The notes under the pieces were generated by a model. That model was given only the letters and a program-made list of their open reading frames with translations, did no database searches and was not told where the DNA came from. The position numbers and the translations under genes are program-made. Positions 9,530 through 30,089 of a DNA stretch of 38,339 nucleotides are shown here, piece after piece. The stretch comes from Thermoplasmata archaeon (GTDB lineage Archaea; Thermoplasmatota; DTKX01; VGTL01): NCBI GenBank assembly GCA_038851035.1, contig JAWCLH010000027.1:1-38339 (forward strand), written 5' to 3'. Position 1 is the stretch's first letter. Each line of letters begins with the position of its first letter.

Positions 9530-10162
9530 ATGGACCTCCAGGAACTCGCCGGCGCCGTCATCGAGGGTGACGCGGAGAGGGTCACGGAACTGGTCCGCGC
9601 ACTGCTGGCGCGGGGTCTCGCACCATCGAGAATCGTCAACGAAGGCCTCATCGCTGGAATGAACACAGTCGGCGAGAGGTTCAAGGAGGGCGAGTTCTTT
9701 ATACCCGAGGTGATGATGTCAGCGCGCGCAATGCACGCTGGACTCGGAATCGTGCGCCCCCTGCTCACAAAATCGGAAGAAGCGGGGAAGGGCACGGTCG
9801 TGATATGCACTGTGAAGGGCGATGTCCACGACATCGGCAAGAACTTGGTTGCGATGATGCTCGAGGGCGCCGGGTTCAGGGTCATCGACCTAGGCACGGA
9901 TGTGCCTCCTGAAAGAATTGTGGAGGTGGTGAAAAAGGAGGGTGCGGACATCCTCGCAATGTCCACGCTCCTGACCACAACCCTTCCAAGAATACCCGAA
10001 GCGATACGGGCCCTAGAAGCAGCTGGTCTAAGAAACAGAGTCAAGGTGATGGTCGGTGGGGCTCCGGTGACTCAGGCCTTCGCGGAGAAGGCGGGCGCGG
10101 ACGGCTACGCGCCAGATGCTGCACTTGCCGTGGACAAGGCGAGGGAACTTGTCGGAAAATAG
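9530..10162 (+). CDS. B12-binding corrinoid protein (MtbC/MtmC-like)
   Basis: A 210-residue methyltransferase-associated corrinoid protein. It carries a B12 cofactor that shuttles a methyl group between a substrate-specific methyltransferase and an acceptor methyltransferase. The N-terminal helical cap domain (about 1-85) contains the family stretch NEGLIAGMNTVGERFKEGE. The Rossmann-like B12 domain (about 88-208) has the cobalt-ligating motif DVHDIG (98-103), with H100 as lower axial ligand. The conserved MSTLLTTT (144-151) and VGGAPVT (175-181) loops contact the corrin tail. No methyltransferase (MtbB, MttB, MtaB or MtrH-like) is in the window, so the substrate cannot be assigned. The next gene in the same direction is a thymidylate synthase, 133 bp away. 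Confidence 0.9.
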   Translation: MDLQELAGAVIEGDAERVTELVRALLARGLAPSRIVNEGLIAGMNTVGERFKEGEFFIPEVMMSARAMHAGLGIVRPLLTKSEEAGKGTVVICTVKGDVHDIGKNLVAMMLEGAGFRVIDLGTDVPPERIVEVVKKEGADILAMSTLLTTTLPRIPEAIRALEAAGLRNRVKVMVGGAPVTQAFAEKAGADGYAPDAALAVDKARELVGK

Positions 10163-10295
10163 GGGGGGAGGACCGCTACTGCAAGAAGGGATGATGCAGG
10201 GGGTGGGGTCGCGGGACCCGCGTGGAAGAGAACAAAAAGGGAGAGGTTGGATGGGACATATGTTGTCTGGAATACCTTCGGGGTGAGGGTGGAGG

Positions 10296-11210
10296 ATGGA
10301 GGGAGGCGACGAGGAATTCCGTGCGAGGGAGGGAGAGATCCCGGTCCTCCAGGCGAGGGGGAGGACCGTCCCTGAGGCGTGGGAGAGGAGCGTCCTTCTG
10401 CTCTGGGAGAGGGGCGCGAGGATGAGGACCGAGTATGACAGGGAGGGCGACGAGCCCAGCCGAGACGCCACGATGATCATCGTTGTTGAGGACCCGATGG
10501 CCGAGCCCCGCATCCACCTGGCGTTTCCGGGCGGCATCGAGGACCTCGAGAAGTATAGGCAGGAGGTACTCTATGGCGTCCATGACCACTGGATAAAGCC
10601 CGAGGAGGGCAAGTGGACCTACACATACCACCAGAGGCTCTGCGCCTATGCCCCGGTGGAGGATCTGTCTAGTTCGACCGTGAGGAGCCCATTCAGGCCC
10701 GTCAATCAGCTCGAGTACATCGTCCGAAAGCTCTCGGAATCACCCCACTCGCGCCGGGCACAGGCGATCACATGGATCCCGACAGCCGACCCCTCGACAG
10801 ACGACCCACCATGCCTCCAGAGGCTCTGGTGCAGGCTAGTGCCCGCGGGGCCCTCTCCGCCCTCCTCCATGGATGATAGGGTGAAATATTTCTTGAACAT
10901 GAACACACACTGGCGCTCGCGCGACGCCTACAAGGCCGCCTTCATGAACATCTACGCCCTGACCGACCTGCAGCGTTGGCTCGCGGAGGAGCTCGGGAGG
11001 AGGATGGGCTGCGGGGTTGCGGTCGGGAGGTACGTGGATATCAGCGACTCCTACCATATCTACGGCTCCTACTTCCGCGAGTTCAGCGAGAGGTTCCTAA
11101 AGCTGGTCAGGGAAAGGGCTTTCGAAAGAAGGGTCTGGCGGACAGATGACAAGCGCGTTCAGGCGGCAATACAGGCTGCGAGGGAGCAGCTGGCCGCCGA
11201 GAGAGAGTAG
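10296..11210 (+). CDS. thyA: Archaeal-type thymidylate synthase
   Basis: Expected to methylate dUMP to dTMP using a methylene-tetrahydropterin or folate. The family signatures are visible in order: the arginine pair and nearby residues in HSRRAQAITW (151-160), the catalytic cysteine C173 in DDPPCLQ, the RSRD motif (207-210) followed by AFMNIYAL, and DSYHIYG (251-257), which contacts the deoxyribose. Archaeal members have this PPCLQ context instead of the bacterial PPCH. The first 60 residues are divergent. The ATG has a GGGTGAGG ribosome binding site 7 nt upstream. A related dCMP or dUMP hydroxymethylase cannot be excluded from sequence alone. The adjacent corrinoid protein may indicate a shared one-carbon theme, but this is only proximity. 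Confidence 0.8.
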   Translation: MEGGDEEFRAREGEIPVLQARGRTVPEAWERSVLLLWERGARMRTEYDREGDEPSRDATMIIVVEDPMAEPRIHLAFPGGIEDLEKYRQEVLYGVHDHWIKPEEGKWTYTYHQRLCAYAPVEDLSSSTVRSPFRPVNQLEYIVRKLSESPHSRRAQAITWIPTADPSTDDPPCLQRLWCRLVPAGPSPPSSMDDRVKYFLNMNTHWRSRDAYKAAFMNIYALTDLQRWLAEELGRRMGCGVAVGRYVDISDSYHIYGSYFREFSERFLKLVRERAFERRVWRTDDKRVQAAIQAAREQLAAERE

Positions 11211-17510: not shown

Positions 17511-17556
17511 TTCGATACATATATGAACAATTCCCTACAAAAATTTTTATTAATAA

Positions 17557-17566
17557 CTTTAATAAC
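17557..17566 (+). promoter_or_regulatory. TATA-like box for the cadherin-like repeat protein
   Basis: CTTTAATAAC predicts transcription from about 17588, just before the ATG at 17601. This supports the 17601 start over the upstream in-frame ATG at 17523. Confidence 0.45.
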
Positions 17567-17600
17567 TACAATGATATTACATATAGCTGAGGTTGTTGAT

Positions 17601-19934
17601 ATGAAAACAGGCACAGCTGTGGTCGCAAGTCTCGTGATTGCACTCTCTGCAGTCCTGACAGCCGCGCCTGCGTCCGCCTGCCATGGGCAGACGGTCGAGG
17701 TAGTGGGCTTGAACACCTCCTGGACCGATAACAATATGTCCCCAAACACAGTCACCCTTGAGCCGCCGACCCAGACCGTAACACCTGGACAGTCGTACGA
17801 GTATCACATCAAAATGACTCTCACCCCGGGCTGCGGCTCGAATTACTTCCTCTACGCCTCCCTCGGCACCGTGCCCGCGGGCTGGAGGGCGACCTACACC
17901 ACCGGCCCGGGCGGAACCGGGGACGATCTAAGCAATGTGGATAACAAGGCGTGCGGGAACGGGAACGTCGTGATAAATGCTTATTTAAACGTCACGGCTC
18001 CGGATTGGGCTGGGGAGGGAGAGACGGCCATAATAACCGCCATGATCGGCGCGGACGACAACGCCCGTAACGACAAAGACCTGGTCTATGTGAAGACCAG
18101 AACGAAGGTTCATATACCTGACCCGCCAGTGGTCGTTGCCAACCCCATTCCAGACTTCGAGATGCCGGAGGACACCGAGGACAGCACACGCATAAACCTC
18201 GCAACGGTCTTCAAGGACACCGACAACGACCCGATCACCTTCGGCGTGAACACCCCCAACCACTTCACCGTCAAGATTCTCGGCGATGGGCGCGTAACAA
18301 TAGCCCCGAACAAGGACTGGAACGGTATGGAGGTGCTTAGCTTCTGGTGCACAGATGGTATCACCAGGGCCTACGACGACGTAGCTGTGACCGTCACGCC
18401 CGTCCCAGACCCGCCGGTGGTCGCCGCCCCGATGAAGGACTTCGCCATCCCCGAGGACGGGGAGGACGGAACCACCGTCACGCTCAGCAGGGTCTTCTAC
18501 GATGCCGACGTTCCCTACGGCGACAGGTTGACCTACACATTCACTGGTCAGGAGAACATTAGCGTCACAATCAAAGCGGACACGAAGGTTCTCTTCAGAC
18601 CGCCTCCTGGGTGGTCCGGAAAGGAGACGATCGTCTTCACGGCCAGGGACCTCTCAGGGGCGAGTGTTTCTGATGACGTCGAGGTTCTGGTGACGGACTC
18701 CAGCCGCCCACCATATATCAGGATGTCGGTCAGAGATGTGACAATAAAGGAGGATGGGAGCGACTCCTCGATAGACCTCAAGGAGGTCTTCGCGGACTCC
18801 GACGCCGACAGCGTGCTTGAGTTCGGCTGCGAGGGCGCGTCGTCGATTCACGTGGAAATCTCAAACGGCGTGGTTACCCTAACCCCGGCCCCGAACTGGA
18901 ACGGCGTCGAGGTGCTCCAGTTCTGGGCCTCCGATGGAATGTTCAGCCCCGTGTTCGACGATTGCAAGGTGACTGTGACTCCGGTCAACGACCCGCCATT
19001 CCAAAAAGAGCCCCTGAGCATCGAGTTTGAGGAAGACTCCTCTCCCGATACGATTTTCCTAGATAAATACTTCGGGGATGTGGACGGCGACAAGCTGACC
19101 TACTCCACTAGGTCCCCCCAGGGGCTGACGGTCACCATCTACTCCCGGACGAACGAAATGTCCCTCTCCCCGGCCCTGAACTTCAACGGCGAGCTCACAA
19201 TTAGCCTGAAGGTCAGCGACGGGCAGGACGAGATTCAGGTAACCGTCCCAGTGAGAATTATCTCCGTTGATGACCCACCGATAATAACCGACTGGCTCCC
19301 CGGCGGGAACGTGGTCTGCACCGAGGGTGACGAGCTAACCTTCAAGGTCAGCGCTGTTGATGTGGACGGCGACGAGCTCGGCGTGCTCTGGGAAATCGAC
19401 CAGTGCTTCACCCACCTGAAGAGGTTCGAAGACAAGTTCGAGATTAAGGTAAAGGCTCTCGCGGAGAACGGCCTCGGACCCGGCACCTGGACCTTGACGG
19501 CGTGGGTGGATGGCGGCGAGAAGGCCTCCGTCCCCCACTCGTGGAGCGTTACCGTGAGGCACGGAAACCGCCCCCCCTCCACTCCGGTCATAACATCCCC
19601 GGACCCCTCGAAGAACTACACCTCCGCACAGGAACTTACATTCTCGGCGAGCTCCGAGGACCCCGATGGGGACCTCCTGAGCTACAGATGGCTCATAGAC
19701 GGCGTCGAGGTCTCCACCAGCCAGAGCTTCTTGACGAAGCTCCCCGTGGGGCTCCACAAGGTCAAGGTCACGGTCTCCGATGGGAGGGGAGGAGTTGCGG
19801 ATTCACAAGAGATGATGATAAATATCCTCAAGCCGCCGAAGAGGGGCGGCGCGGGTAGCACCCCCGGGTTCGAGGCTCTAGCGCTGGCCAGTGCGCTGGC
19901 GGCCACGGTAGTTCTCCTCCGCAAGAGGAAATAG
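17601..19934 (+). CDS. Cadherin-like repeat surface protein with PGF-CTERM-like sorting tail
   Basis: A 777-residue surface protein counted from the ATG at 17601, which begins a canonical signal peptide (MKTGTAVVASLVIALSAVLT, cleavage near ASA-C). The frame is open from 17523, but those 26 residues come from the AT-rich promoter. An N-terminal beta domain (about 30-180) is followed by four cadherin-like 90-95-residue repeats (about 182-272, 274-371, 373-466, 468-560), each with an E-D-x-x-D/S start, NWNG-type turn, SDG and a closing PVNDPP-type linker. Two PKD/Ig-like domains follow (about 562-660, 662-745). The end is tripartite: a TPGF motif (754-757), a hydrophobic stretch and RKRK. This matches PGF-CTERM signals processed by archaeosortase A and replaced by a lipid anchor. 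Acidic DxDxD turns suggest calcium binding. Confidence 0.87.
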   Translation: MKTGTAVVASLVIALSAVLTAAPASACHGQTVEVVGLNTSWTDNNMSPNTVTLEPPTQTVTPGQSYEYHIKMTLTPGCGSNYFLYASLGTVPAGWRATYTTGPGGTGDDLSNVDNKACGNGNVVINAYLNVTAPDWAGEGETAIITAMIGADDNARNDKDLVYVKTRTKVHIPDPPVVVANPIPDFEMPEDTEDSTRINLATVFKDTDNDPITFGVNTPNHFTVKILGDGRVTIAPNKDWNGMEVLSFWCTDGITRAYDDVAVTVTPVPDPPVVAAPMKDFAIPEDGEDGTTVTLSRVFYDADVPYGDRLTYTFTGQENISVTIKADTKVLFRPPPGWSGKETIVFTARDLSGASVSDDVEVLVTDSSRPPYIRMSVRDVTIKEDGSDSSIDLKEVFADSDADSVLEFGCEGASSIHVEISNGVVTLTPAPNWNGVEVLQFWASDGMFSPVFDDCKVTVTPVNDPPFQKEPLSIEFEEDSSPDTIFLDKYFGDVDGDKLTYSTRSPQGLTVTIYSRTNEMSLSPALNFNGELTISLKVSDGQDEIQVTVPVRIISVDDPPIITDWLPGGNVVCTEGDELTFKVSAVDVDGDELGVLWEIDQCFTHLKRFEDKFEIKVKALAENGLGPGTWTLTAWVDGGEKASVPHSWSVTVRHGNRPPSTPVITSPDPSKNYTSAQELTFSASSEDPDGDLLSYRWLIDGVEVSTSQSFLTKLPVGLHKVKVTVSDGRGGVADSQEMMINILKPPKRGGAGSTPGFEALALASALAATVVLLRKRK

Positions 19935-19999
19935 AGAGAAGGCCCCGGACAAAGGGAGATGCGGCGCGGAAGAGAGGTTGATGGAGGGAATTCTCCACT

Positions 20000-20008
20000 A
20001 AATATTTA
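20000..20008 (+). promoter_or_regulatory. TATA box for the first activator ATPase
   Basis: AAATATTTA is centred about 33 nt before the ATG at 20037, predicting transcription from about 20030 and an almost leaderless message. This places the true start at 20037, not at the earlier in-frame codon at 19959. Confidence 0.5.
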
Positions 20009-20036
20009 TCGAACCTTCATTATCGGTGCTTCCGTC

Positions 20037-20804
20037 ATGACCGCAGCCGGGGTTGATGTCGGTTCAATAGCCACCAAAGCTGTTCTCCTCGCCGATGGCA
20101 GAATGCTCGCACACGCTACCAGACCGACCGGCCTAGACGCCGCGGGCGCCGCGCTCGGGGCGCTTGAGGAGTGCTGCGGGGCCGCTGGAGTCTGCAGGGA
20201 GGACCTGGTAGCGATTGTGGCGACGGGCAATGGAAGGAAGGCGATTCCTTTCGCAACGAAGGAGGTCTCCGAGATAATGGCCTTCGCGAAGGGGGCCCGG
20301 CACCTCCTGCCGCAGGTGAGGACCGCTATCGACCTAGGTGGCCAGGGAATTCGAGTTATTTCAATGAGCGAGCAGGGGACGGTGGTCAAGTTCCTGACCA
20401 ACGACAAGTGCTCGACGGGCACGGGCTGCTTCCTCGAGGTGATGGCGGCGGCGCTTGACACAAAGACTGAGGAGCTTGGGAGGCTCGCGCTCGCCTCGAA
20501 GGTGCACCACAACATCAGCAACACCTGCACCGTGTTTGCGGAGTCGGAGGTGGTATCGCTCGTCGCGAGGGGGAAGAACAGGGAGGACATCATCGCCGGC
20601 CTCCTCGACGCCATGGCGGCCAAGGTAAAGACGATGGTCAACCAGCTCGGGCTCAGGAGGGAGGTCTTCTTCGGCGGCGGAGTGGCGAGGAACGAGGGGG
20701 CCGTGAGAGCATTAGAGGGGGCGCTAGGGGTCCCGCTCCATGTGCCCGATAACCCGGACGTCATAGGGGCACTCGGCGCGGCGCTCAGCGCGGGGGTGAG
20801 GTGA
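20037..20804 (+). CDS. HgdC/YjiL-family [4Fe-4S] activator ATPase, divergent copy
   Basis: An ASKHA-fold ATPase of the BadF/BadG/HgdC family. Active members form a homodimer bridging one [4Fe-4S] cluster and use ATP to fire single low-potential electrons into a partner reductase or dehydratase. From the ATG at 20037 it has 255 residues. The phosphate-1 motif GVDVGSIATKAV (5-16), cluster cysteines C125 (NDKCSTGTG) and C164 (NTCTVFAESEV), and the adenosine loop GGGVARN (213-219) are present. Two usually conserved spots differ: GGQD is GGQG (G104 instead of Asp) and TGYGR is TGNGR (63-67). C131 is an extra cysteine near the cluster. These changes may weaken ATP hydrolysis. The second copy follows 66 nt downstream, so they are likely cotranscribed and could form a heterodimer. 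Confidence 0.88.
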   Translation: MTAAGVDVGSIATKAVLLADGRMLAHATRPTGLDAAGAALGALEECCGAAGVCREDLVAIVATGNGRKAIPFATKEVSEIMAFAKGARHLLPQVRTAIDLGGQGIRVISMSEQGTVVKFLTNDKCSTGTGCFLEVMAAALDTKTEELGRLALASKVHHNISNTCTVFAESEVVSLVARGKNREDIIAGLLDAMAAKVKTMVNQLGLRREVFFGGGVARNEGAVRALEGALGVPLHVPDNPDVIGALGAALSAGVR

Positions 20805-20870
20805 GGTGGCCGGCGGGTGCATGGTGCGGGGCTCCGGCGCGGCGCGGATGCAGGCGGTGGAGGGGTGGCC

Positions 20871-21671
20871 GTGATAACCGCTGGAGTGGACGTTGGCTCG
20901 ACCTACACGAAGGTCTCAATTCTGGCCGATGGTAAGGTCGTCGGCTACGCAGTCGTGCCAACGGGCGCGGACGCGGAGGCGGCGGCGGCGGAGTGCCTCA
21001 AGAGAGCCCTCGAGATGGCGAGGCTGAAGAGGCCGGACGTGCAGTACATCGTCTCCACGGGCTATGGAAGGAAGCTTGTCCAGCTCACGATAGCCAATGA
21101 GTCCGTCAGCGAGATAATGGCCAACGCTGCCGGAACGAGGTTCATCGCTGCGGACAAAGGCATACGCACCATTTTGGACATCGGAGGGCAGGACACGAAA
21201 ATAATATCCCTTGATGCAAAGGGGAACATGGTCAAGTTCCAAATGAACGACAGGTGCGCCGCCGGAACCGGCCGCTTCCTCGAGGTCATGGCTAGGGTTC
21301 TCGAGATACCACTCGACCAGCTCGGCCCGGAGAGCCTGAAGTCCAAGAACCCGGTCACAATCAGCAGCACCTGTACCGTCTTCGCAAAGTCCGAGGTGGC
21401 GTCGATGCTCGCGCGCAGGGTGCCCAAGGAGGACATCGCCGCAGGAATCCATAAGTCAATGGCGGAGAGGATGGCGATAATGGCGAGGAAGGTCGGTGTG
21501 GTGGAGAGGGTCTTCTTCGACGGGGGTCCTGCGAGGAACATCGGTATGCGGAAGGCGATGGAGGACGAACTTAAGGTGAAGCTCGTGGTCCCGGAGATGC
21601 CGCAGATAGTGACCTCGATAGGCGCCGCGCGAATCGCCGCGGAGAGGGCGGCAGCTAAGGGGGCGGGGTAG
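20871..21671 (+). CDS. HgdC/YjiL-family [4Fe-4S] activator ATPase, canonical copy
   Basis: The second ASKHA activator, 266 residues from the GTG at 20871, which has a GGAGGGGTG ribosome binding site immediately upstream. The open frame begins at 20817, but the extra 18 residues are Gly/Arg-rich and do not belong to the fold. All hallmark motifs are intact: GVDVGSTYTKV (5-15), TGYGRK (63-68), DIGGQDTK (103-110), cluster cysteines C129 (NDRCAAGTGRF) and C168 (STCTVFAKSEV), and GGPARNIG (218-225). It is expected to be the working ATP-dependent electron donor, most plausibly for the double-cubane-type reductase encoded about 7 kb downstream on the same strand. No HgdA/HgdB dehydratase pair is nearby. 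Confidence 0.92.
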   Translation: MITAGVDVGSTYTKVSILADGKVVGYAVVPTGADAEAAAAECLKRALEMARLKRPDVQYIVSTGYGRKLVQLTIANESVSEIMANAAGTRFIAADKGIRTILDIGGQDTKIISLDAKGNMVKFQMNDRCAAGTGRFLEVMARVLEIPLDQLGPESLKSKNPVTISSTCTVFAKSEVASMLARRVPKEDIAAGIHKSMAERMAIMARKVGVVERVFFDGGPARNIGMRKAMEDELKVKLVVPEMPQIVTSIGAARIAAERAAAKGAG

Positions 21672-21734: not shown

Positions 21735-23855
21735 ATGAAAATGAAAAATGGAGCAAGGGCAGCCGCTGCACTTATAATGGTGCTCGCCCTTCTGCCCGGA
21801 CCCGCTGGGGCTGTTGAGGGCAGGGGAGCGCCTGTGATTCAGGACCTGACCCAGCTGACCCCGGCCCCCCTCCACGGTGAACAGCTCGTCTTCAGGGCCT
21901 GCTGCACCGACCCCGACGGCGATGGAATTCGGGAGAGCCTTCTGATTCTCGATGGCATCGCCCTGCAAATGGCCGAGAATGACCCGGCCGACATTGACAC
22001 CACCGACGGGAAGCTCTTCAGCCTCAACTGGAGCGCCAAGGGCGGCAGCCACATCTACGCCTTCGCCTTCTCCGACGGTACGGACTGGACCAACACGACC
22101 CTCCATGAATTCGAGGTCCTCTGGGCCCCGCCCTCCGGCGACTGGGAGGTCCGGGAGGAACTGAGTGTGGCCAACGCAACCATCGAGCTCAGGGGGAACC
22201 TGCTGGTCAGAAGCGGCGGGACGCTCGAGCTCAGCAACACCACAATAAAAATCAACGGGGACGTGGACGGGAGGTACGGCGTTCTTGTGGAGCGGGGGGC
22301 GAGCCTCGCTCTGCGCAATGGCTCCAAGGTGACGAAATCGACGGGGGCCAAGGCCTACACATTCCGCGTCATGCCCGGCGGGACACTCCGGGTCATCGAC
22401 TCGGAGATATGGTACGCAGGCTACGAGAACCCGTCGGACAACAGCGCCATGGGCATTTTCGTCGAGGGCGACACGACAATCGAGCATTCCACAATCGTCA
22501 GCGGCGCCAAGGGCATAATAGCGGAGAACTGCGACCTCGTGATGCGCAACACCACCCTCAAGGAGGCCTTCAGGCGCAACGTAGAGGCGACAAACGCCTC
22601 CATCACCATGGAGGACTGCCTTGTCTACTCCTCGAGGGACGCCTGCAACGTGGAGTTCTTCAGGGGCACAAAGTCATTCATATCCCGATGCACCATCCAG
22701 AAGAACGGCCATAACGGCATCTGGATGAGGGATGGAGCGAGAGCAACGGTCACCGGCTGCCTCATCACTGATTCCAATCAGAACGGCATCTGGATGGACA
22801 ACGGGTGCGAGCTGACCGTCTCTGACACTGTCATCGAGACGAGCAGGGAGAATGGACTCTGGGTCAACGGCTCCTCGACCGTCACCGCGACCAACATTAC
22901 CATCCGCAACTGCCTCATGAACGGGACGTGGGTGAGCGGCGGCAGAATCACGATGATCGGGTCCAGAATCGAGGGGAACGAGCTGCACGGCTTCGCGGCC
23001 TTCGACGGCTGCGAAGTCACATTCAGGAGCAATTTCGTTAACAACAGCAGGAGGCACAACTACGAGACCACCAACTGCACCACCCTGATGGAGGACTGCG
23101 TCTTCGGGCCGAGCAGGGACGCCTGCAACGTCGAGTTCTTCGCTTACTCAAAGGCCACGGTCCGGAGGACCACCATAACGGGCGCTGGCCACAACTGCTT
23201 CTGGTTCCGCGACTACGCCGAAATCACCATAGAGGACTGCAACCTGAGCGCCAGCCCGAACAATGTTATCTGGTGCGACGTCGGCTGCAGGCTCACGGTC
23301 CGCAACTCCACCCTGAGCGGCGTCCCGCTCGACGGAATCAACTGCTCCAACTCCACCGTGACCGTCGAGGGCTGCACGATAAAGGACTGCGGGGGCTTGG
23401 GAATCAACTCCGTCAACTGCTCCCTGTCCGTCACGGGATGCACATTCAGCGGCAACACCATGGGGCAGGTTCTGGCGCGGAGCTACCTGAGCGTGAGGGT
23501 GCTGGACCCGAGGGGCCGGCCCATCTCCGGAGCGAGCGTGAAGATAACAGACCAGGAGAGGCGGGAGGTGTTCTCCGGGAAGACCGGGGACGACGGAACG
23601 ACCGGGGCTCCGCTTCTGCTCACCGGCTACAGAATCGACAATGATGGTAAAAGGACGGACTTCAGCTACACAATAAAGGCGACGAAGGGGGACTATGAGG
23701 GAACCCTGAAAACGGTCCTCGCCACAGGAAAAGGCGTGGAGCTCAGGGTGAAGGAGAAGCCGAAGCCAGGCCCCGGTTTCGAGCTCGTCGGTCTTCTGGC
23801 GGCGCTGGTCGTCGCAGCCGCGCTTGCCGGCGGGAGATTGAGAGGGGGCGAATAG
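21735..23855 (+). CDS. Right-handed beta-helix surface protein with PGF-CTERM-like tail
   Basis: A 706-residue secreted protein starting at an ATG with a strong GAGGAGGA site. Signal peptide about 1-27, then an Ig-like domain (about 30-130). A GDWEV entry motif leads to a long right-handed parallel beta-helix (about 135-590) built of 20-25-residue rungs rich in Asn, Thr and Cys, such as NGIWMRDGARATVTGC. The helix contains an internal duplication with an offset of about 160 residues. A carboxypeptidase-regulatory-like beta domain follows (about 592-668). The end is tripartite: PGPGF (678-682), hydrophobic stretch, and RLR. This suggests archaeosortase processing. No catalytic residues of pectate lyase type were recognised. 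The next gene starts 15 nt downstream, so this protein probably belongs to the polyferredoxin/reductase transcript. Confidence 0.88.
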   Translation: MKMKNGARAAAALIMVLALLPGPAGAVEGRGAPVIQDLTQLTPAPLHGEQLVFRACCTDPDGDGIRESLLILDGIALQMAENDPADIDTTDGKLFSLNWSAKGGSHIYAFAFSDGTDWTNTTLHEFEVLWAPPSGDWEVREELSVANATIELRGNLLVRSGGTLELSNTTIKINGDVDGRYGVLVERGASLALRNGSKVTKSTGAKAYTFRVMPGGTLRVIDSEIWYAGYENPSDNSAMGIFVEGDTTIEHSTIVSGAKGIIAENCDLVMRNTTLKEAFRRNVEATNASITMEDCLVYSSRDACNVEFFRGTKSFISRCTIQKNGHNGIWMRDGARATVTGCLITDSNQNGIWMDNGCELTVSDTVIETSRENGLWVNGSSTVTATNITIRNCLMNGTWVSGGRITMIGSRIEGNELHGFAAFDGCEVTFRSNFVNNSRRHNYETTNCTTLMEDCVFGPSRDACNVEFFAYSKATVRRTTITGAGHNCFWFRDYAEITIEDCNLSASPNNVIWCDVGCRLTVRNSTLSGVPLDGINCSNSTVTVEGCTIKDCGGLGINSVNCSLSVTGCTFSGNTMGQVLARSYLSVRVLDPRGRPISGASVKITDQERREVFSGKTGDDGTTGAPLLLTGYRIDNDGKRTDFSYTIKATKGDYEGTLKTVLATGKGVELRVKEKPKPGPGFELVGLLAALVVAAALAGGRLRGGE
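22570..23400 (+). repeat. Internal duplication in the beta-helix gene (480-bp offset)
   Basis: The near-identical stretch GGGACGCCTGCAACGT plus GAGTTCTTC occurs at about 22637 and again exactly 480 bp later at about 23117. Flanking rungs align at the protein level across roughly 110-140 residues, for example GHNGIWMRDGA with GHNCFWFRDYA. It looks like an old duplication of several beta-helix rungs. Confidence 0.65.
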
Positions 23856-23870
23856 GGGGGAACCGGGGCT

Positions 23871-24977
23871 GTGAAGGGGAGACGACTCCAGCGGGCCGTG
23901 GCCCTGATGGCCACGATGGGTCTGACCGCCCTCGCGCTTCTGCCACCGACCGCCAGCGCCGCTCCAAAGCTCGTGGTCTATGAGCTCAGGGTCGAGCCCG
24001 AGCCGTCGATTCAGGGCCCGGAATTGCCGATAGTGGTTACGGCCAGGGTGGGCTGCGGGGGTGCGTGCTGCTATGTGGTCTACGGCCGGGAAATGAGGGC
24101 CGAGCTTATCCTTCCGGAGAACTTTACCCTTGTCGACGGACCTCGCGTCCAGTGGCTGACCAGCCCCGGCCATCCTCAGGGGACGGTAGCGGCGCAGCCC
24201 GGCGGGGGCCTGACATGGATAACCCCGCGATGGGAGGTGAGGGGCTCCAGCCTCGGCACTTACAACCTCTCGGTGAGAATCACAGGCACGAACGACGCCG
24301 GCGACAGCATCAACGTGACCTCCCCGGCCGAGGTGACGATAGCCTCCGGTGCCGCGATTTCATCACCGATTTTCCCGCATAGGCCGGTCGTGGGGAGGGA
24401 GACGGTTCTGCTCGTCAGCGTTAGCTCCCGCAGGGGGGTCGGCTCGGTCACGCTCTTCTACAGCGCGGACAACAGGACATGGAGGAGCTCTACCATGGAA
24501 CCGGTCGGGGGAGACTTTTATAAGGGCTCCCTTCCCCCCCGCCAGCGCGAGATGAGTTATATAATTTACTTGGAGTCTGTTGACACGGCCGGCGAGACCT
24601 TCCGCACCGGCCTCTACACTGTCAGGGTCCGGGACCCCGAGAGGGCCGCGGGGGTCTCGAGCGCCGCGACCCTCATCGTCGCGGCCGGCTCTTTCGCGGG
24701 CCTCTTCCTGATTCTCTACTTCGGGACACGCACACCCCTCCACGTCCGAGCCCGGGGAATCCTTTTAGTCGGGAGTCGCGCGATGGAGGAAGTCCCGCGG
24801 GACAGGGAGGGCCTGAGGGCGGCGCAGAGGAGGCTGGTGGCGCTCAGGTGGAGAGTTCTGGCGATTCTGGTCGCCGTCATGATAGTCCTCTTCCTGATTT
24901 CGCTGCTCACGGGCCAGCTGGAGAGGGTGGTCAGCCACACCACCAACCCGCAGGAGGCCGTCATCAGGTGGTGGTGA
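23871..24977 (+). CDS. Secreted-domain protein with two C-terminal membrane helices
   Basis: Not recognised as a named family. The 368-residue product starts at a GTG 15 nt after the beta-helix gene with a G-rich stretch before it. A signal peptide (about 1-31) is followed by an N-terminal beta-sandwich-like domain (about 33-155) with a cysteine cluster GCGGACCY (C62, C66, C67), and a second Ig-like domain (about 160-255) with a sequence like VGSVTLFYSADNRTW. Two hydrophobic helices (about 264-284 and 328-348) bracket a basic, probably cytoplasmic loop of about 43 residues. Its place between the beta-helix protein and the polyferredoxin fusion suggests a membrane accessory of that unit. The polyferredoxin gene starts 85 bp downstream. 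Confidence 0.75.
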   Translation: MKGRRLQRAVALMATMGLTALALLPPTASAAPKLVVYELRVEPEPSIQGPELPIVVTARVGCGGACCYVVYGREMRAELILPENFTLVDGPRVQWLTSPGHPQGTVAAQPGGGLTWITPRWEVRGSSLGTYNLSVRITGTNDAGDSINVTSPAEVTIASGAAISSPIFPHRPVVGRETVLLVSVSSRRGVGSVTLFYSADNRTWRSSTMEPVGGDFYKGSLPPRQREMSYIIYLESVDTAGETFRTGLYTVRVRDPERAAGVSSAATLIVAAGSFAGLFLILYFGTRTPLHVRARGILLVGSRAMEEVPRDREGLRAAQRRLVALRWRVLAILVAVMIVLFLISLLTGQLERVVSHTTNPQEAVIRWW

Positions 24978-25062: not shown

Positions 25063-28000
25063 TTGACCGCTGGGGTTGAGGAGGAAGGTGCAAAGGGCCC
25101 CGGGAAGAGAGACAGCCGCGCCCTCTCACTTTCTTCCCTCTTTCTCATCGCCTCCGGAGCCGGATGGCTCCTCTCGGGCCTCCTCAATCTGGCGGCGCTG
25201 GCTGCGACGCAACTCGGCCGCGGCAGGGTCGTCCCGGGCGCGATGTACCCCCTCCTCGATGTGGACGGCTGGATGTTCTTCCTCCTCTGCGTCCTCTCTT
25301 TCTCGCTGATGGGCGTGATCGGTTTGGGGGCCGGTTGGGGCGTCCTGAAAAAAAGGTACTGGGCGCGATCCCTCGCGCTCTCATTCTCGATTATGGCCGC
25401 GGTCAGCGGCGCTCTACTAGCGACCTACACATATCCCGCTCCGGGCGTCCTTCTCGCCCTCGCCCACCTCGTTTTCGTGGTGTATCTCGTCCGCTCGAGA
25501 GAAATGGAGAGGGCCTTTCCCGTGTGGGTGAGCAGGCACGCGCGCGGCGCCTCCCAGTTCTCCCTCCTCTTCCTCCTGAACGCGACCGCGGTCGGCTCCC
25601 TTATCATCGCGCCCATGCTGCCCCTGCTCCGCTTCAGGCACATGTCCGGGGGCACATACGGCGTCCCGCTCTGCTCGCTTGGCTCGATATCCCGTTGCCT
25701 GAGCGGGAACTGGGCCGACCTCCTCCTCGCCCCCGTGCTCCTGATCGCGGTGCTGATGCTCGTCGGCCTTCTCGTCGGAAGAGCGCTCTGCGGCTGGGCC
25801 TGCCCGATAGGCTTCCTCCAGGACCTAGCCGCACGCGTCAAGGGGCTAGCGGGCGCGGGCGACGTCGAGCCCTCGATGAGGGCGCACGAGCTCCTCAGGC
25901 TCGTCAAGTACGCCGTCCTGCTCTTCGTGCTGCTCCTGGCGCTCAACATCGGGATAGCCAGCGTCCTCAGCCCGGACGCAAAGGGCGAGCTCGCCTCCGG
26001 CCTCTCGGGTTTCCCCCTGTTCCAGTCTGGGGCGACGCCCTGCGAGGCCTGCCCCGCACCCATCACGGGCTACTTCCTCCCGGACGACCTCATCACTAAC
26101 GGTCTGGCGGGGAGGTTTGTGATGACGCCCGAGGCCGCGCTCAGGCTCTTCGTGCTCGCGGGCTTCGTCATCGGCGCGCTGCTGATGCCGCGCTTCTTCT
26201 GCCGCTACTTCTGCCCTGCGGGGGCGATGGCCGCGCTGTTCAACAGGGTCAGCGCGCTCTCGATAGAGAAGGACCAGGAGAGGTGCACGGACTGCGGCTA
26301 CTGCGTGACCGCCTGCCCCATGCGCATCACCCGCCTGAGGGACGAGCGCGTGGACTCGAGGGTCCACGACACCGAGTGCACCTTCTGCCTCGAGTGCGTG
26401 GACAGATGCCCGGAGCGCGCCCTCTCCCTGAGCTTCCAGGGCAGGAGCGTCTACAGCGGTGGCAAGGAGTGGTGGCTCAGGACGCTCAGGGAGACCGGGC
26501 CGCCCTCCGGGGAGCTGGAGGAGACCCCTGCCCCTCCCACAGCCAGCCCGCCGGCGATTGGCGGGGGAAGGGGAGCACAGCCGCCGGGAGATGAGGGGAG
26601 GAGGGGGGCAGCCGCCCTTCTTGCGCTCCTGATTGCCGCTTCTCTCGTCGCCCCGGCTCTCGTGTCCACGGATGTCTCCGGGAGGGAGTACGGCCCCGGC
26701 AACCTGCCCCCCGCGAACCACCGCGGCGACCGCACCCTCTCATCCGGCGATAGGCTCATCGTCAGGGCTTCGGAGCTCACCATCAACGGCAGCTTGATTC
26801 TAGAAGAAAACGCCTCTGTGTTGATCTCGGAAGGCTCCACGGTCACAATAAACGGCGACCTCTGGCTCTCGGGGAAGTCGTCCCTGCGCATCGAGAACTC
26901 GACGCTGAGAATTCGGGTCCCCGAGGAGCCGCCGATGAGAATCGAGGAGCTCTACCTGGCCCCCAGCGGCTTCGTCCTAGTCGAGGAGGACGCCTCGATG
27001 TGGCTCTCGGGCGCCAGGCTCGAGGTCTCGAGGCTCCGGGAGACCCTGATGCAGGGTATCGTGAGTCCTGGCTTCGGGCGAATCGGGGAGAGCTACACCT
27101 ATAGAATAACCTACACCGACCCGCAGGAGCGGCCCCCGGAGCGGCTCGTCGCGGTTATAGACGGCGAGACCCTCAACATGACGCAGGAGGACCCCGACGA
27201 CACCACCTTCCGAGACGGCGTGGTTTACAGGTGTGAGGCGGTCCTCCCCGCGGGCAACCACAGTTACCACTTCGAGTGCGAGGGCCCCGACGGCCCCCTG
27301 CGCTACCCGCGCGAGGGCGAGATTCCGGGACCGCACGTCGGCACGGACGAGCCGATTTTTCTCTTCGGCTCGGAGATGCTCGTCAGCTTCGGGACCGTCG
27401 AGGCGCTCTCCTCGACGATAGACATGGAGGCGACCCTATACACCCACATGGACTCCAGACTCACCCTTGAGCGCTCGTCCCTGAGGTGCGGTCTCACCAT
27501 CGAGATAAACCCGCTCTGCGTCTTCACCGAGTCGAACGTGCCGAGCATGGTCGTCAAGGAGAGAACGGGAGCGGTCAAGGTGATTCTGCGCGACTGCACC
27601 GTGGGCACCGCGGTCATCGAGAGCGTCTCCGGCGTCCTCTTTGAGCGATGCACCGTCGAGACCCTGGACATGCAGTCCGAGTCCCGGACCACGGTGATTG
27701 GCTCGACCGTCAGGTTCCTCAGCGCCGGCGGCAACGCCTCCGCCCTCCTCGACGCATCCACGGTCACCGCGACCGAGTTCCCCCACATGCGGCTCGGGGG
27801 GGACTGCTGCGTGACTGCCATCAATGGGACCCGCCTCGGGCTGGTCCACATGCACGAGCGCGCCCGGCTCTACCTGACCGCGTCCGAGGTGGGGAGGCTC
27901 GAGGCGCATGACGACGCACGGGTGTGGAGCGAGGGCGCGGCCATAGAACAGCAGGAGCTCTCAGGCAACGCGACAATCCTCAACACCATGAGGATAAGGG

Positions 28001-28680
28001 CGACCGTGAACGGCAGGCCGGCCGTCGTGGAGGTGGAGGTGATCTCCCCGGGCGGCGAGCTGCTGGTCTCCACGACCACCCGCGAGGACGGCTCCAGGAG
28101 CTTCGCGGTGCCGACGCGCATCGTCCGCCCCAGCGGCACGGAGGAGCTGGAGCGCTGCACGATAAGGGTGAGGTACATGTCGCTCGAGAGCGTGACGGAG
28201 CACAACCTGAGCGGGAGCCCGGAGGTCAATGTCTCGCTCGAGGACCTCATGCCGCCGCGCATCGAGGACATCGAGTTCGACCACTACTTCAGGACGGAGG
28301 GCGAGGCGCTGGTCAGGGCGCGTGTGAGCGACGGGAGCGGCTCGGGCGTGAGCCGGGTGGAGGTGGCGTACTCCGTGGACGGTGGTAGGGAGAGATGGGC
28401 CAAACTCTTCCATATCGGCGGTGGCCTGTACGAGGGGACACTGACAGGCCTCAAGGGGGCGAGCGAGGTGAGGTTCAGGGTAGTGGCGAGCGACTGGATG
28501 AACAACACAATGTCGTCCCCGCCGAGAGCGGTTGGCGTGGGCGCGCCCCGGTGGGCGTGGGGCGCGGCGCTCGCGCTTGTTGCGGCCTTGCTCGCGCTTG
28601 CGGCGGGCTGGGCGCTGCTGGAGCGCCTCAGACTCAAGAGGTTCGTGAGGGGCGGGGGGCCCCGCGAGGCGGAGAGGTGA
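25063..28680 (+). CDS. NapH-like membrane polyferredoxin fused to extracytoplasmic beta-helix
   Basis: A 1205-residue fusion not known to me as a described family. The N-terminal half has about five to seven membrane helices (within 21-390) and the CxxxCP pairs of the NapH/NosR/CcoG-type family: C243/C247 (CGWACPIGF) and C380/C384 (CRYFCPAGA), plus C327xxC330. Two ferredoxin-type [4Fe-4S] motifs follow: C408, C411, C414, C418 and C439, C442, C445, C449. After a Pro/Gly-rich linker and a membrane helix (about 516-534) comes a beta-helix/Ig-like region (about 555-1060), including a carboxypeptidase-regulatory-like module, an Ig-like domain (about 1065-1155), and a final membrane helix (about 1164-1187) with a basic tail. 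The TTG start has AGGTGAGG 4 nt before it; no ATG or GTG is available nearby in frame. The reductase gene starts 5 nt after the stop, implying coupled translation. It probably moves electrons at the membrane. Confidence 0.88.
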   Translation: MTAGVEEEGAKGPGKRDSRALSLSSLFLIASGAGWLLSGLLNLAALAATQLGRGRVVPGAMYPLLDVDGWMFFLLCVLSFSLMGVIGLGAGWGVLKKRYWARSLALSFSIMAAVSGALLATYTYPAPGVLLALAHLVFVVYLVRSREMERAFPVWVSRHARGASQFSLLFLLNATAVGSLIIAPMLPLLRFRHMSGGTYGVPLCSLGSISRCLSGNWADLLLAPVLLIAVLMLVGLLVGRALCGWACPIGFLQDLAARVKGLAGAGDVEPSMRAHELLRLVKYAVLLFVLLLALNIGIASVLSPDAKGELASGLSGFPLFQSGATPCEACPAPITGYFLPDDLITNGLAGRFVMTPEAALRLFVLAGFVIGALLMPRFFCRYFCPAGAMAALFNRVSALSIEKDQERCTDCGYCVTACPMRITRLRDERVDSRVHDTECTFCLECVDRCPERALSLSFQGRSVYSGGKEWWLRTLRETGPPSGELEETPAPPTASPPAIGGGRGAQPPGDEGRRGAAALLALLIAASLVAPALVSTDVSGREYGPGNLPPANHRGDRTLSSGDRLIVRASELTINGSLILEENASVLISEGSTVTINGDLWLSGKSSLRIENSTLRIRVPEEPPMRIEELYLAPSGFVLVEEDASMWLSGARLEVSRLRETLMQGIVSPGFGRIGESYTYRITYTDPQERPPERLVAVIDGETLNMTQEDPDDTTFRDGVVYRCEAVLPAGNHSYHFECEGPDGPLRYPREGEIPGPHVGTDEPIFLFGSEMLVSFGTVEALSSTIDMEATLYTHMDSRLTLERSSLRCGLTIEINPLCVFTESNVPSMVVKERTGAVKVILRDCTVGTAVIESVSGVLFERCTVETLDMQSESRTTVIGSTVRFLSAGGNASALLDASTVTATEFPHMRLGGDCCVTAINGTRLGLVHMHERARLYLTASEVGRLEAHDDARVWSEGAAIEQQELSGNATILNTMRIRATVNGRPAVVEVEVISPGGELLVSTTTREDGSRSFAVPTRIVRPSGTEELERCTIRVRYMSLESVTEHNLSGSPEVNVSLEDLMPPRIEDIEFDHYFRTEGEALVRARVSDGSGSGVSRVEVAYSVDGGRERWAKLFHIGGGLYEGTLTGLKGASEVRFRVVASDWMNNTMSSPPRAVGVGAPRWAWGAALALVAALLALAAGWALLERLRLKRFVRGGGPREAER

Positions 28681-28685
28681 TTCCG

Positions 28686-30089
28686 ATGGAGGGAGGTGAG
28701 AGGGAGATTCCGGAGGGCCGGGAAGCGCCGGCGGAGGAGACCGGCGAGCCGGGGGGCGGCGGGATGGAGGGAGGAGGGAATGGAGAAGTGGGAGGGGGAC
28801 GCGCGGAGGAAGCGACGCGGGGGCCCGGGGACGAGGGGAGCGGCCCCGCGCCTGAACTCAGCCCCACGGTTCAGGAGGTCGCGGGGCGGATTGAGGAGGA
28901 GGTCTCGGAGATGGAGCGCTCCGGCTCCGGCCTCGAGGGGATGAGGTACTTCTACGGGCTCGCCCGGGGCCTCTTCACGAAGAGGGTCGAGGAGCTGCGG
29001 GCGCTGAAGGAGCAGGGGAAGAAGCTCATCGGCGTATTCTGCAACTTCGTGCCCGAGGAGCTTGTGATCGCCGCCGGCGCTGTGCCCATCAGGCTCTGCT
29101 CCGGCTGCCAGGAGCCGATCGCCACGGCCGAGGAGGTCCTTCCCAGGAACTTCTGCCCCGCGATCAAGTCGTCGCTGGGGATGCTGATGGTCCAGTCGCC
29201 CCACTTCCAGCTCGCGGACCTGCTCATCACGCCGACCACCTGCGATGGGAAGAAGAAGATGGCCGAGGTTCTGGCGGAGTACAGGCCGACCTGGGTCCTC
29301 GAGGTTCCGCACACCACCCTCACCACGCAGGCCCGCCAGCTCTGGGCAAACGAGCTGGCGATGCTGAAGAGGAATCTGGAGCAGTTCACCGGAAACAGAA
29401 TCACGAGGGCGGGGTTGCGCGCCGCGATCGAGCTGACCAACCGCCGGAGGGCGCTGATTCGGAGGCTATACGAGGCGCGGAAGAGGGAGGACGTGCCGAT
29501 ATGGGGCAGGGACGCGCTCCTGGCCACAAACCTCTGGTTCCACGACGACCCCGCGAGGTGGGCGGCGCAGATGGAGAGGCTGTGCGACGAGGTCGAGAGG
29601 AGGGAGAGGGGGGTGGCCGACAGGAAGGCCCCCAGAATTCTCCTGACGGGCAGCCCGGTGATTCTGCCGACCTGGAAGCTGCCCAGACTCATAGAGGAGT
29701 CGGGAGGCGTTCTGGTCGCGGACGAGATATGCACTGGCGCGAAGGTGGTCTGGGACCCGGTGTACGTGAAGGACTACTCGATGACTGGGATGCTTCTCGG
29801 CCTCGCCGACCGCTACCTGATGAACTCCTGCGCCTGCTTCACCCCGAACCGCTCGCGTGTCGAGAGGCTGCTCCAGTTCGCGCAGCAGTTCAGGGCGAGC
29901 GGGGTGGTCTACCACGTGCTCATGGGCTGCTACATATACAGCATCGAGGCGCGGCACATAGAGAGGGCCCTGATGGAGAAGGGGACGCCGATGCTCACAA
30001 TCGAGACCGACTACAGCACAGAGGACGTGGAGCAGATTCGCACCCGCGTGGAGGCTTTTCTGGAGATGATAACGAGCGCGAGGGTGTGA
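28686..30089 (+). CDS. Double-cubane-cluster-type ATP-dependent reductase (YjiM/DCCP, HgdB superfamily)
   Basis: A member of the 2-hydroxyacyl-CoA dehydratase/BcrB-HgdB superfamily, closest in motifs to the stand-alone YjiM/double-cubane cluster proteins. Those homodimers hold an [Fe8S9] cluster and accept electrons from an HgdC-like ATPase to reduce small molecules. The ATG at 28686 follows a GGAGAGGTG site; residues 1-75 are Gly/Glu-rich and probably disordered. The core (about 85-467) has FCNFVPEELVIAAG (C119), CSGC (138/141), EEVLPRNFCPAIKSS (C157), TTCDGKKKM (C186), EICTGAK (C349), CAC (382/384) and MGC (C415). EEVLPRNFCPAIKSS and TTCDGKKKM are characteristic of the stand-alone group. 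No second dehydratase subunit is encoded nearby. The physiological substrate is unknown even for studied relatives. Confidence 0.88.
   Translation: MEGGEREIPEGREAPAEETGEPGGGGMEGGGNGEVGGGRAEEATRGPGDEGSGPAPELSPTVQEVAGRIEEEVSEMERSGSGLEGMRYFYGLARGLFTKRVEELRALKEQGKKLIGVFCNFVPEELVIAAGAVPIRLCSGCQEPIATAEEVLPRNFCPAIKSSLGMLMVQSPHFQLADLLITPTTCDGKKKMAEVLAEYRPTWVLEVPHTTLTTQARQLWANELAMLKRNLEQFTGNRITRAGLRAAIELTNRRRALIRRLYEARKREDVPIWGRDALLATNLWFHDDPARWAAQMERLCDEVERRERGVADRKAPRILLTGSPVILPTWKLPRLIEESGGVLVADEICTGAKVVWDPVYVKDYSMTGMLLGLADRYLMNSCACFTPNRSRVERLLQFAQQFRASGVVYHVLMGCYIYSIEARHIERALMEKGTPMLTIETDYSTEDVEQIRTRVEAFLEMITSARV

Follow-up and report, generated by a model that had tools for sequence, protein, structure and literature searches.

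An archaeal NapH-type polyferredoxin fused to an extracytoplasmic beta-helix domain in a double-cubane cluster protein operon

We have found that a NapH-type polyferredoxin and a beta-helix ectodomain are encoded as one chain in the window, by which we mean the whole 38,339-nucleotide stretch of Thermoplasmata archaeon DNA analyzed here, and that the gene lies in an operon with a double-cubane cluster protein (DCCP) and two ATP-dependent activases. What stands out most in this system is that outer, beta-rich proteins are repeatedly paired with a cytoplasmic ATP-driven reductase, and this DCCP context is of wider interest than the fusion considered by itself. A first-pass annotation of the region had proposed the fusion, which is borne out, but had left out four N-terminal helices and the DCCP/activase context.

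The fused protein

The fusion gene (25063..28680, + strand) has a TTG start and an intact frame of 1205 codons specifying, in order, four N-terminal helices, a NapH-type core, a Pro/Gly-rich linker, a ninth helix, an outer domain of ~620 aa and a tenth helix. The N-terminal 150 aa (25063..25512, +), in which hydropathy predicts the four helices (residues 20-150), are found only in the protein of the fusion's own family and are absent from the NapH proteins of G009, G020 and G079. The NapH core (25513..26457, +) contains, as the first reading of the sequence had it, two CxxxCP membrane motifs (CGWACP at residue 243 and CRYFCP at 380) and two ferredoxin [4Fe-4S] motifs (CTDCGYCVTACP at 408 and CTFCLECVDRCP at 439). 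This combination is the hallmark of the NapH family, and all 12 of its cysteines are present. The same half of the protein is matched by the Pfam profiles Fer4_5 (1.1e-12, two stretches) and Fer4_10 (1.2e-9). The likeness to ferredoxin-type NapH/MauN proteins (TIGR02163, PRK09477) extends to the Fer4_5 CxxxCP pairs, the two [4Fe-4S] motifs and the membrane helices. However, the fusion scores below the NCBIfam napH cut-offs (86.7 against 213.05 bits and 80 against 234 bits), has the four extra helices and the outer beta-helix, and is partnered by DCCP instead of nap gene products, with no NapG, NapA or NapC gene among the flanking genes searched in the window. Following the core, a linker predicted to be cytoplasmic (26458..26601, +; low pLDDT) leads to helix 9 (26602..26682, +), which takes the chain outward, and the protein ends in helix 10 and a positively charged cytoplasmic tail (28549..28653, +); both helices are seen by hydropathy and in the AlphaFold2 model.

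There is no in-frame ATG, GTG or TTG codon between residues 446 and 534, and the outer half therefore lacks any evident start codon from which it could be translated separately with a complete signal helix. Since third-position GC is also alike in the two halves (0.873 and 0.890), a single translated chain is the simplest reading. The same architecture, for which a search of related genomes had been proposed, is present in the MAG VGTL01 (isolate M_DeepCast_200m_m1_298), where a homologue spanning residues 25-1196 lies in one frame with no stop at 59% identity, and where the order of genes (PKD protein, beta-helix protein, IgL, fusion, DCCP) is that of the window. The fusion is present in both genomes of its family examined (n = 2). 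The two proteins are most alike in the NapH core (76% identity); the linker (48%) and the outer domain (47-57%) are intermediate, and the last helix and tail agree at only 24%. A full-length homologue with the same gene order in a separate MAG means that the fusion is not an artefact of an assembly joint. An assembly or frame error, in favor of which we found nothing, can be rejected with near certainty given that the independent assembly of another genus has the same one-frame protein, and the fusion of the two halves in one chain is confirmed.

Hydropathy identifies ten hydrophobic helices at residues ~23-46, 67-95, 103-122, 124-146, 164-189, 212-249, 274-306, 356-381, 514-540 and 1163-1189. 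The distribution of positive charges predicts that the ferredoxin part is inside and that residues 541-1163 are outside, with Cys204 and the CxxC at residues 327-330 facing outward. This predicted topology agrees with the earlier view of cytoplasmic Fe-S clusters coupled to an outer domain, and the neighboring genes do encode surface proteins of similar type. An AlphaFold2 model of residues 6-1205 (mean pLDDT 68.7, pTM 0.44; the C-terminal half modeled by itself was worse, at pLDDT 60.5) shows beta-helix rungs, with pLDDT mostly 84-96, at residues ~542-657 (26686..27033, +; mostly above 85) and ~778-966 (27394..27960, +). Between these stretches lies an Ig-like insert (27028..27354, +), modeled at low confidence. 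Its module is frequent among the surface proteins of these archaea and corresponds to residues 825-897 of the Paenibacillus xanthanase 6fhj (E 3.5e-11). Two beta-sandwich domains follow (residues ~971-1142; 27973..28488, +; AlphaFold2, with a weak Big_7 match). The outer part had been described as about 600 residues of beta-helix and Ig-like structure; this holds for the mixture, but only roughly 300 residues are beta-helix in the model. The beta-helix has no Pfam match, so whilst a domain search recovers the ferredoxin half as anticipated, the beta-helix is a prediction of AlphaFold2. Foldseek matches of the whole model are weak, the best for the solenoid being autotransporter-type beta-helices (TibA, 4q1q: prob 1.00, TMt 0.50, E 0.015), and the C-terminal half gives one short Ig-like match.

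The outer domain contains no haem, flavin or CxxC motif, and the cysteines common to both homologues are four in number and isolated. Domain profile searches of the fusion gave no FMN-binding or thioredoxin match. These observations give little support to the earlier suggestion of extracellular electron exchange through this domain, and haem-based electron export via the fusion is rejected, there being no CxxCH in the outer domain.

The DCCP operon across genomes

The DCCP gene (28677..30089, +) overlaps the stop codon of the fusion (GTGA). It scores 421.2 bits against NF040772, above the curated cut-off of 350, and aligns with the solved DCCP structures 7yyl/6eno (E about 4e-95), keeping their cysteines in the lCsG, nfCp, ttCdg, eiCt, CaCftp and mgCy columns. 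On the upstream side is a PGF-CTERM cadherin/PKD surface protein (17523..19934, +) whose N-terminal domain is shared with the operon protein of G009 and G020. Next come two acyl-CoA dehydratase-type activases of the BcrAD/HgdC type (19959..20804 and 20817..21671, both +), which match TIGR00241 at 1.9e-67 and 6.2e-75 with scores of 227 and 252 against a cut-off of 125.4. These are followed by a secreted beta-helix protein with a C-terminal PGF motif and helix (21735..23855, +; Beta_helix 1.4e-42) and by IgL (23871..24977, +), a membrane protein with a GxCCYxxY motif that is kept directly upstream of NapH and in which, in an alignment of members from five genomes, the CCY is invariant.

Across 390 genomes of the phylum, NapH is encoded directly upstream of DCCP on the same strand at 18 of 21 close DCCP loci. 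The exceptions are G297 and G090, which have DCCP and activase only, and contig C123 of G079, whose DCCP is sister to that of the window and whose matching NapH operon is on another contig of the same genome. This placement of the NapH operon (C64, L109) and the matching DCCP (C123, L155) on separate contigs suggests a split operon. NapH is near 2 of the 29 DCCP loci in a bacterial comparison phylum, where flanks were only about 1.5 kb and some shorter; a third case was seen in another comparison. A tree was built of 56 DCCPs, where the NapH-linked proteins together with that of G079 C123 form one clade (100/100) and the 31 unlinked ones, bacterial DCCPs among them, form another (99/97). DCCP-linked NapH proteins likewise group together (80/81), and five of them, the window's included, make up a group with 100/99 support; the branching orders of the two trees largely match. 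Both trees are midpoint-rooted and consist of rows chosen according to the observed linkage, the Carboxydothermus enzyme not being among these rows.

The corresponding position in further NapH-DCCP operons is taken by outer proteins of other kinds, among them PQQ_2 and FG-GAP proteins in family f53 and a propeller-like protein in f2. In family f11 (L159, L160, L161 and L162) consecutive genes for secreted beta-propeller-type proteins immediately precede the NapH-DCCP pair and the activases, four of them in L162 (PQQ_2, PQQ_2, WD40 and FG-GAP). The outward cysteines are missing from some DCCP-linked NapH proteins, and we accordingly reject an outward CxxC as a general property of this group. 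A second NapH-DCCP-activase locus in the family (L164:1-4400; G001 C16) has no beta-helix but a small CcdA-like membrane protein upstream, and a similar CcdA-like gene is present in G360 and G293. The NapH proteins of G002 and G003 (L115:2245-4044 and L116:1112-2911) have an N-terminal outer domain of their own with several cysteines; that this is a fused IgL is rejected (hhalign probability 0.2%).

The biochemically known DCCP is that of Carboxydothermus hydrogenoformans (6ENO, 7YYL), for which PMC7306483 and PMC11971306 describe an ATP-dependent, activase-like reductase as the source of electrons and, in vitro, the reduction of acetylene, azide and hydrazine. It carries a rare [8Fe-9S] cluster, and its physiological substrate is still unidentified according to PMC11971306. 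The window operon resembles this DCCP-DCCPR system in its DCCP homologue (over about 378 aa) and in its ATP-dependent activases, but differs in having the membrane NapH and surface proteins and in having two activases.

Origin of the outer half

The halves of the fusion are separate genes of one operon in three other families. G009 (L110) has a gene for a 725-aa membrane-anchored outer protein, followed by IgL, NapH and DCCP; G079 (L109) repeats this order for outer protein, IgL and NapH; and in G020 (L111), where the contig edge leaves only the end of the outer protein in view, IgL, NapH and DCCP come after it. The fused outer half is homologous to the operon proteins of G009 and G079 (hhalign probability 98.7%, E 1.7e-16, 380 columns), in a match that extends through the final helix and tail. 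With profile columns 460-690 the operon gene is the only genome-wide match in G009 (1.3e-18) and in G079 (1.2e-8), the remaining profile matches in these genomes being to the common Ig-like insert. Since the outer half is a homologue of a separate operon gene, the two halves are partners that have been joined in the fusion's family. The first-pass annotation had asked whether relatives always carry the halves separately; this is so in the three other families, but not in either genome of the fusion's own.

Taken together, the fused gene and its unfused counterparts in other operons constitute a Rosetta-stone link from a cytoplasmic ATP-dependent reductase to cell-surface proteins, which we did not encounter in the literature searched. 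The same search yielded no paper on NapH with DCCP, which is weak evidence as most subscription papers were out of reach.

Proposed function

The reading we favor, to which we would give about an even chance, is that an ATP-dependent DCCP reductase has this protein as its membrane subunit for electron transfer, fused to one of the reductase's extracytoplasmic partners. Electrons would enter the NapH core at the membrane, either from a quinol-type carrier or from the outward thiols Cys204, Cys327 and Cys330, which are candidate entry points though not universal in DCCP-linked NapH proteins. The CxxxCP motifs and the two [4Fe-4S] clusters at the inner face would hand the electrons to the activase pair, which would spend ATP to push them into the predicted [8Fe-9S] cluster of DCCP, and DCCP would then reduce a small cytoplasmic substrate. 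There is no separate ferredoxin gene among the operon genes examined, which would make the ferredoxin part of NapH the natural donor; with its conserved position beside a defined clade, NapH is a concrete electron donor candidate for DCCP. Because redox motifs are absent from the outer beta-helix, we prefer for it a role as an outside scaffold or docking module, which may hold the complex to IgL, the secreted beta-helix protein and the PGF-CTERM protein. NapH cannot be obligatory for DCCP chemistry, since two DCCP and activase pairs in the phylum occur without it. It also counts against this reading that the NapH proteins characterized so far are known to export electrons taken from quinol, whose potentials would be too high for activase reduction unless energy is added. 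More tentatively, these operons may represent a distinct membrane-bound DCCP reductase subfamily in which NapH and outer beta-helix, Ig or beta-propeller proteins tie ATP-driven low-potential reduction to the archaeal surface, either responding to it or drawing electrons from it, with the fusion as the most integrated form.

Electrons might instead flow outward, with the NapH core supplying an extracytoplasmic acceptor that the beta-helix keeps in place, in extracellular electron exchange or thiol reduction to which DCCP and the activases would be the linked cytoplasmic step. This is the direction in which classical NapH-like proteins work (PMC8238504, PMC9012536), and it would suit the outward Cys204 and CxxC of the core. 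The flavinylated NapH-like systems, NosR and PceC (PMC8238504, PMC5928378) also combine a NapH core with an extracytoplasmic domain in one chain, and NapH-FMN_bind proteins are common and well documented (PMC8238504), so that the earlier statement that NapH types lack such an outer domain was too strong. Nearer to hand, two genomes of the phylum (G356 and G321) encode NapH-thioredoxin-like-Ig fusions of 930-960 aa (L112:4633-7422 and L113:7747-10629) with a CSAC/CPGC motif, a second CTYC/CVNC motif, an Ig-like domain and a last helix. They share with the window protein the NapH core, a helix, a large outer part, the Ig-like domain and the last helix, and are parallel fusions whose own outer part is likely redox-active. 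However, the outer domains of the flavinylated systems bind FMN and those of G356 and G321 are thioredoxin-like with no DCCP near, whereas the outer domain of the fusion is a beta-helix lacking any such redox motif. We therefore regard outward flow as unlikely, albeit the strongest of the competing accounts.

Alternatively, neighboring operon genes may simply have been joined neutrally, with each half acting as before and the tether having no special role. The occurrence of both halves elsewhere as separate neighbors would allow this, as would the lower conservation of the linker and last helix. Against it, two genera have retained the fusion, with 59% identity between them, and its outer domain sits behind NapH, not before IgL as the separate gene does. 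This possibility, too, seems improbable and ranks next.

Lower again in our estimation is a maturation or sensing device which, by analogy with NosR and the beta-helix protein NosD, might assemble or monitor an extracytoplasmic metal center or the state of the envelope. The neighboring secreted beta-helix protein does match NosD (PF05048, 1.2e-11) and the fusion weakly matches NosR (3.2e-11, far below the cut-off), but the NosD profile is one that beta-helices match in general, the fusion has no FMN-binding domain, and the operon contains no nos genes or metalloenzyme.

Other features of the window were noted in passing. Between 31300 and 36500 the GC content drops from ~65% to ~30% over two very large minus-strand surface-protein genes, one with PKD repeats and the other with a transglutaminase-like core and CARDB. 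At 9530-11210 a gene for a stand-alone corrinoid (B12-binding) protein adjoins a divergent thymidylate synthase-like gene, and at 204-2888 a methionyl-tRNA synthetase-like ORF has a long Gly/Ala/Ser-rich low-complexity insertion ahead of its C-terminal domain.
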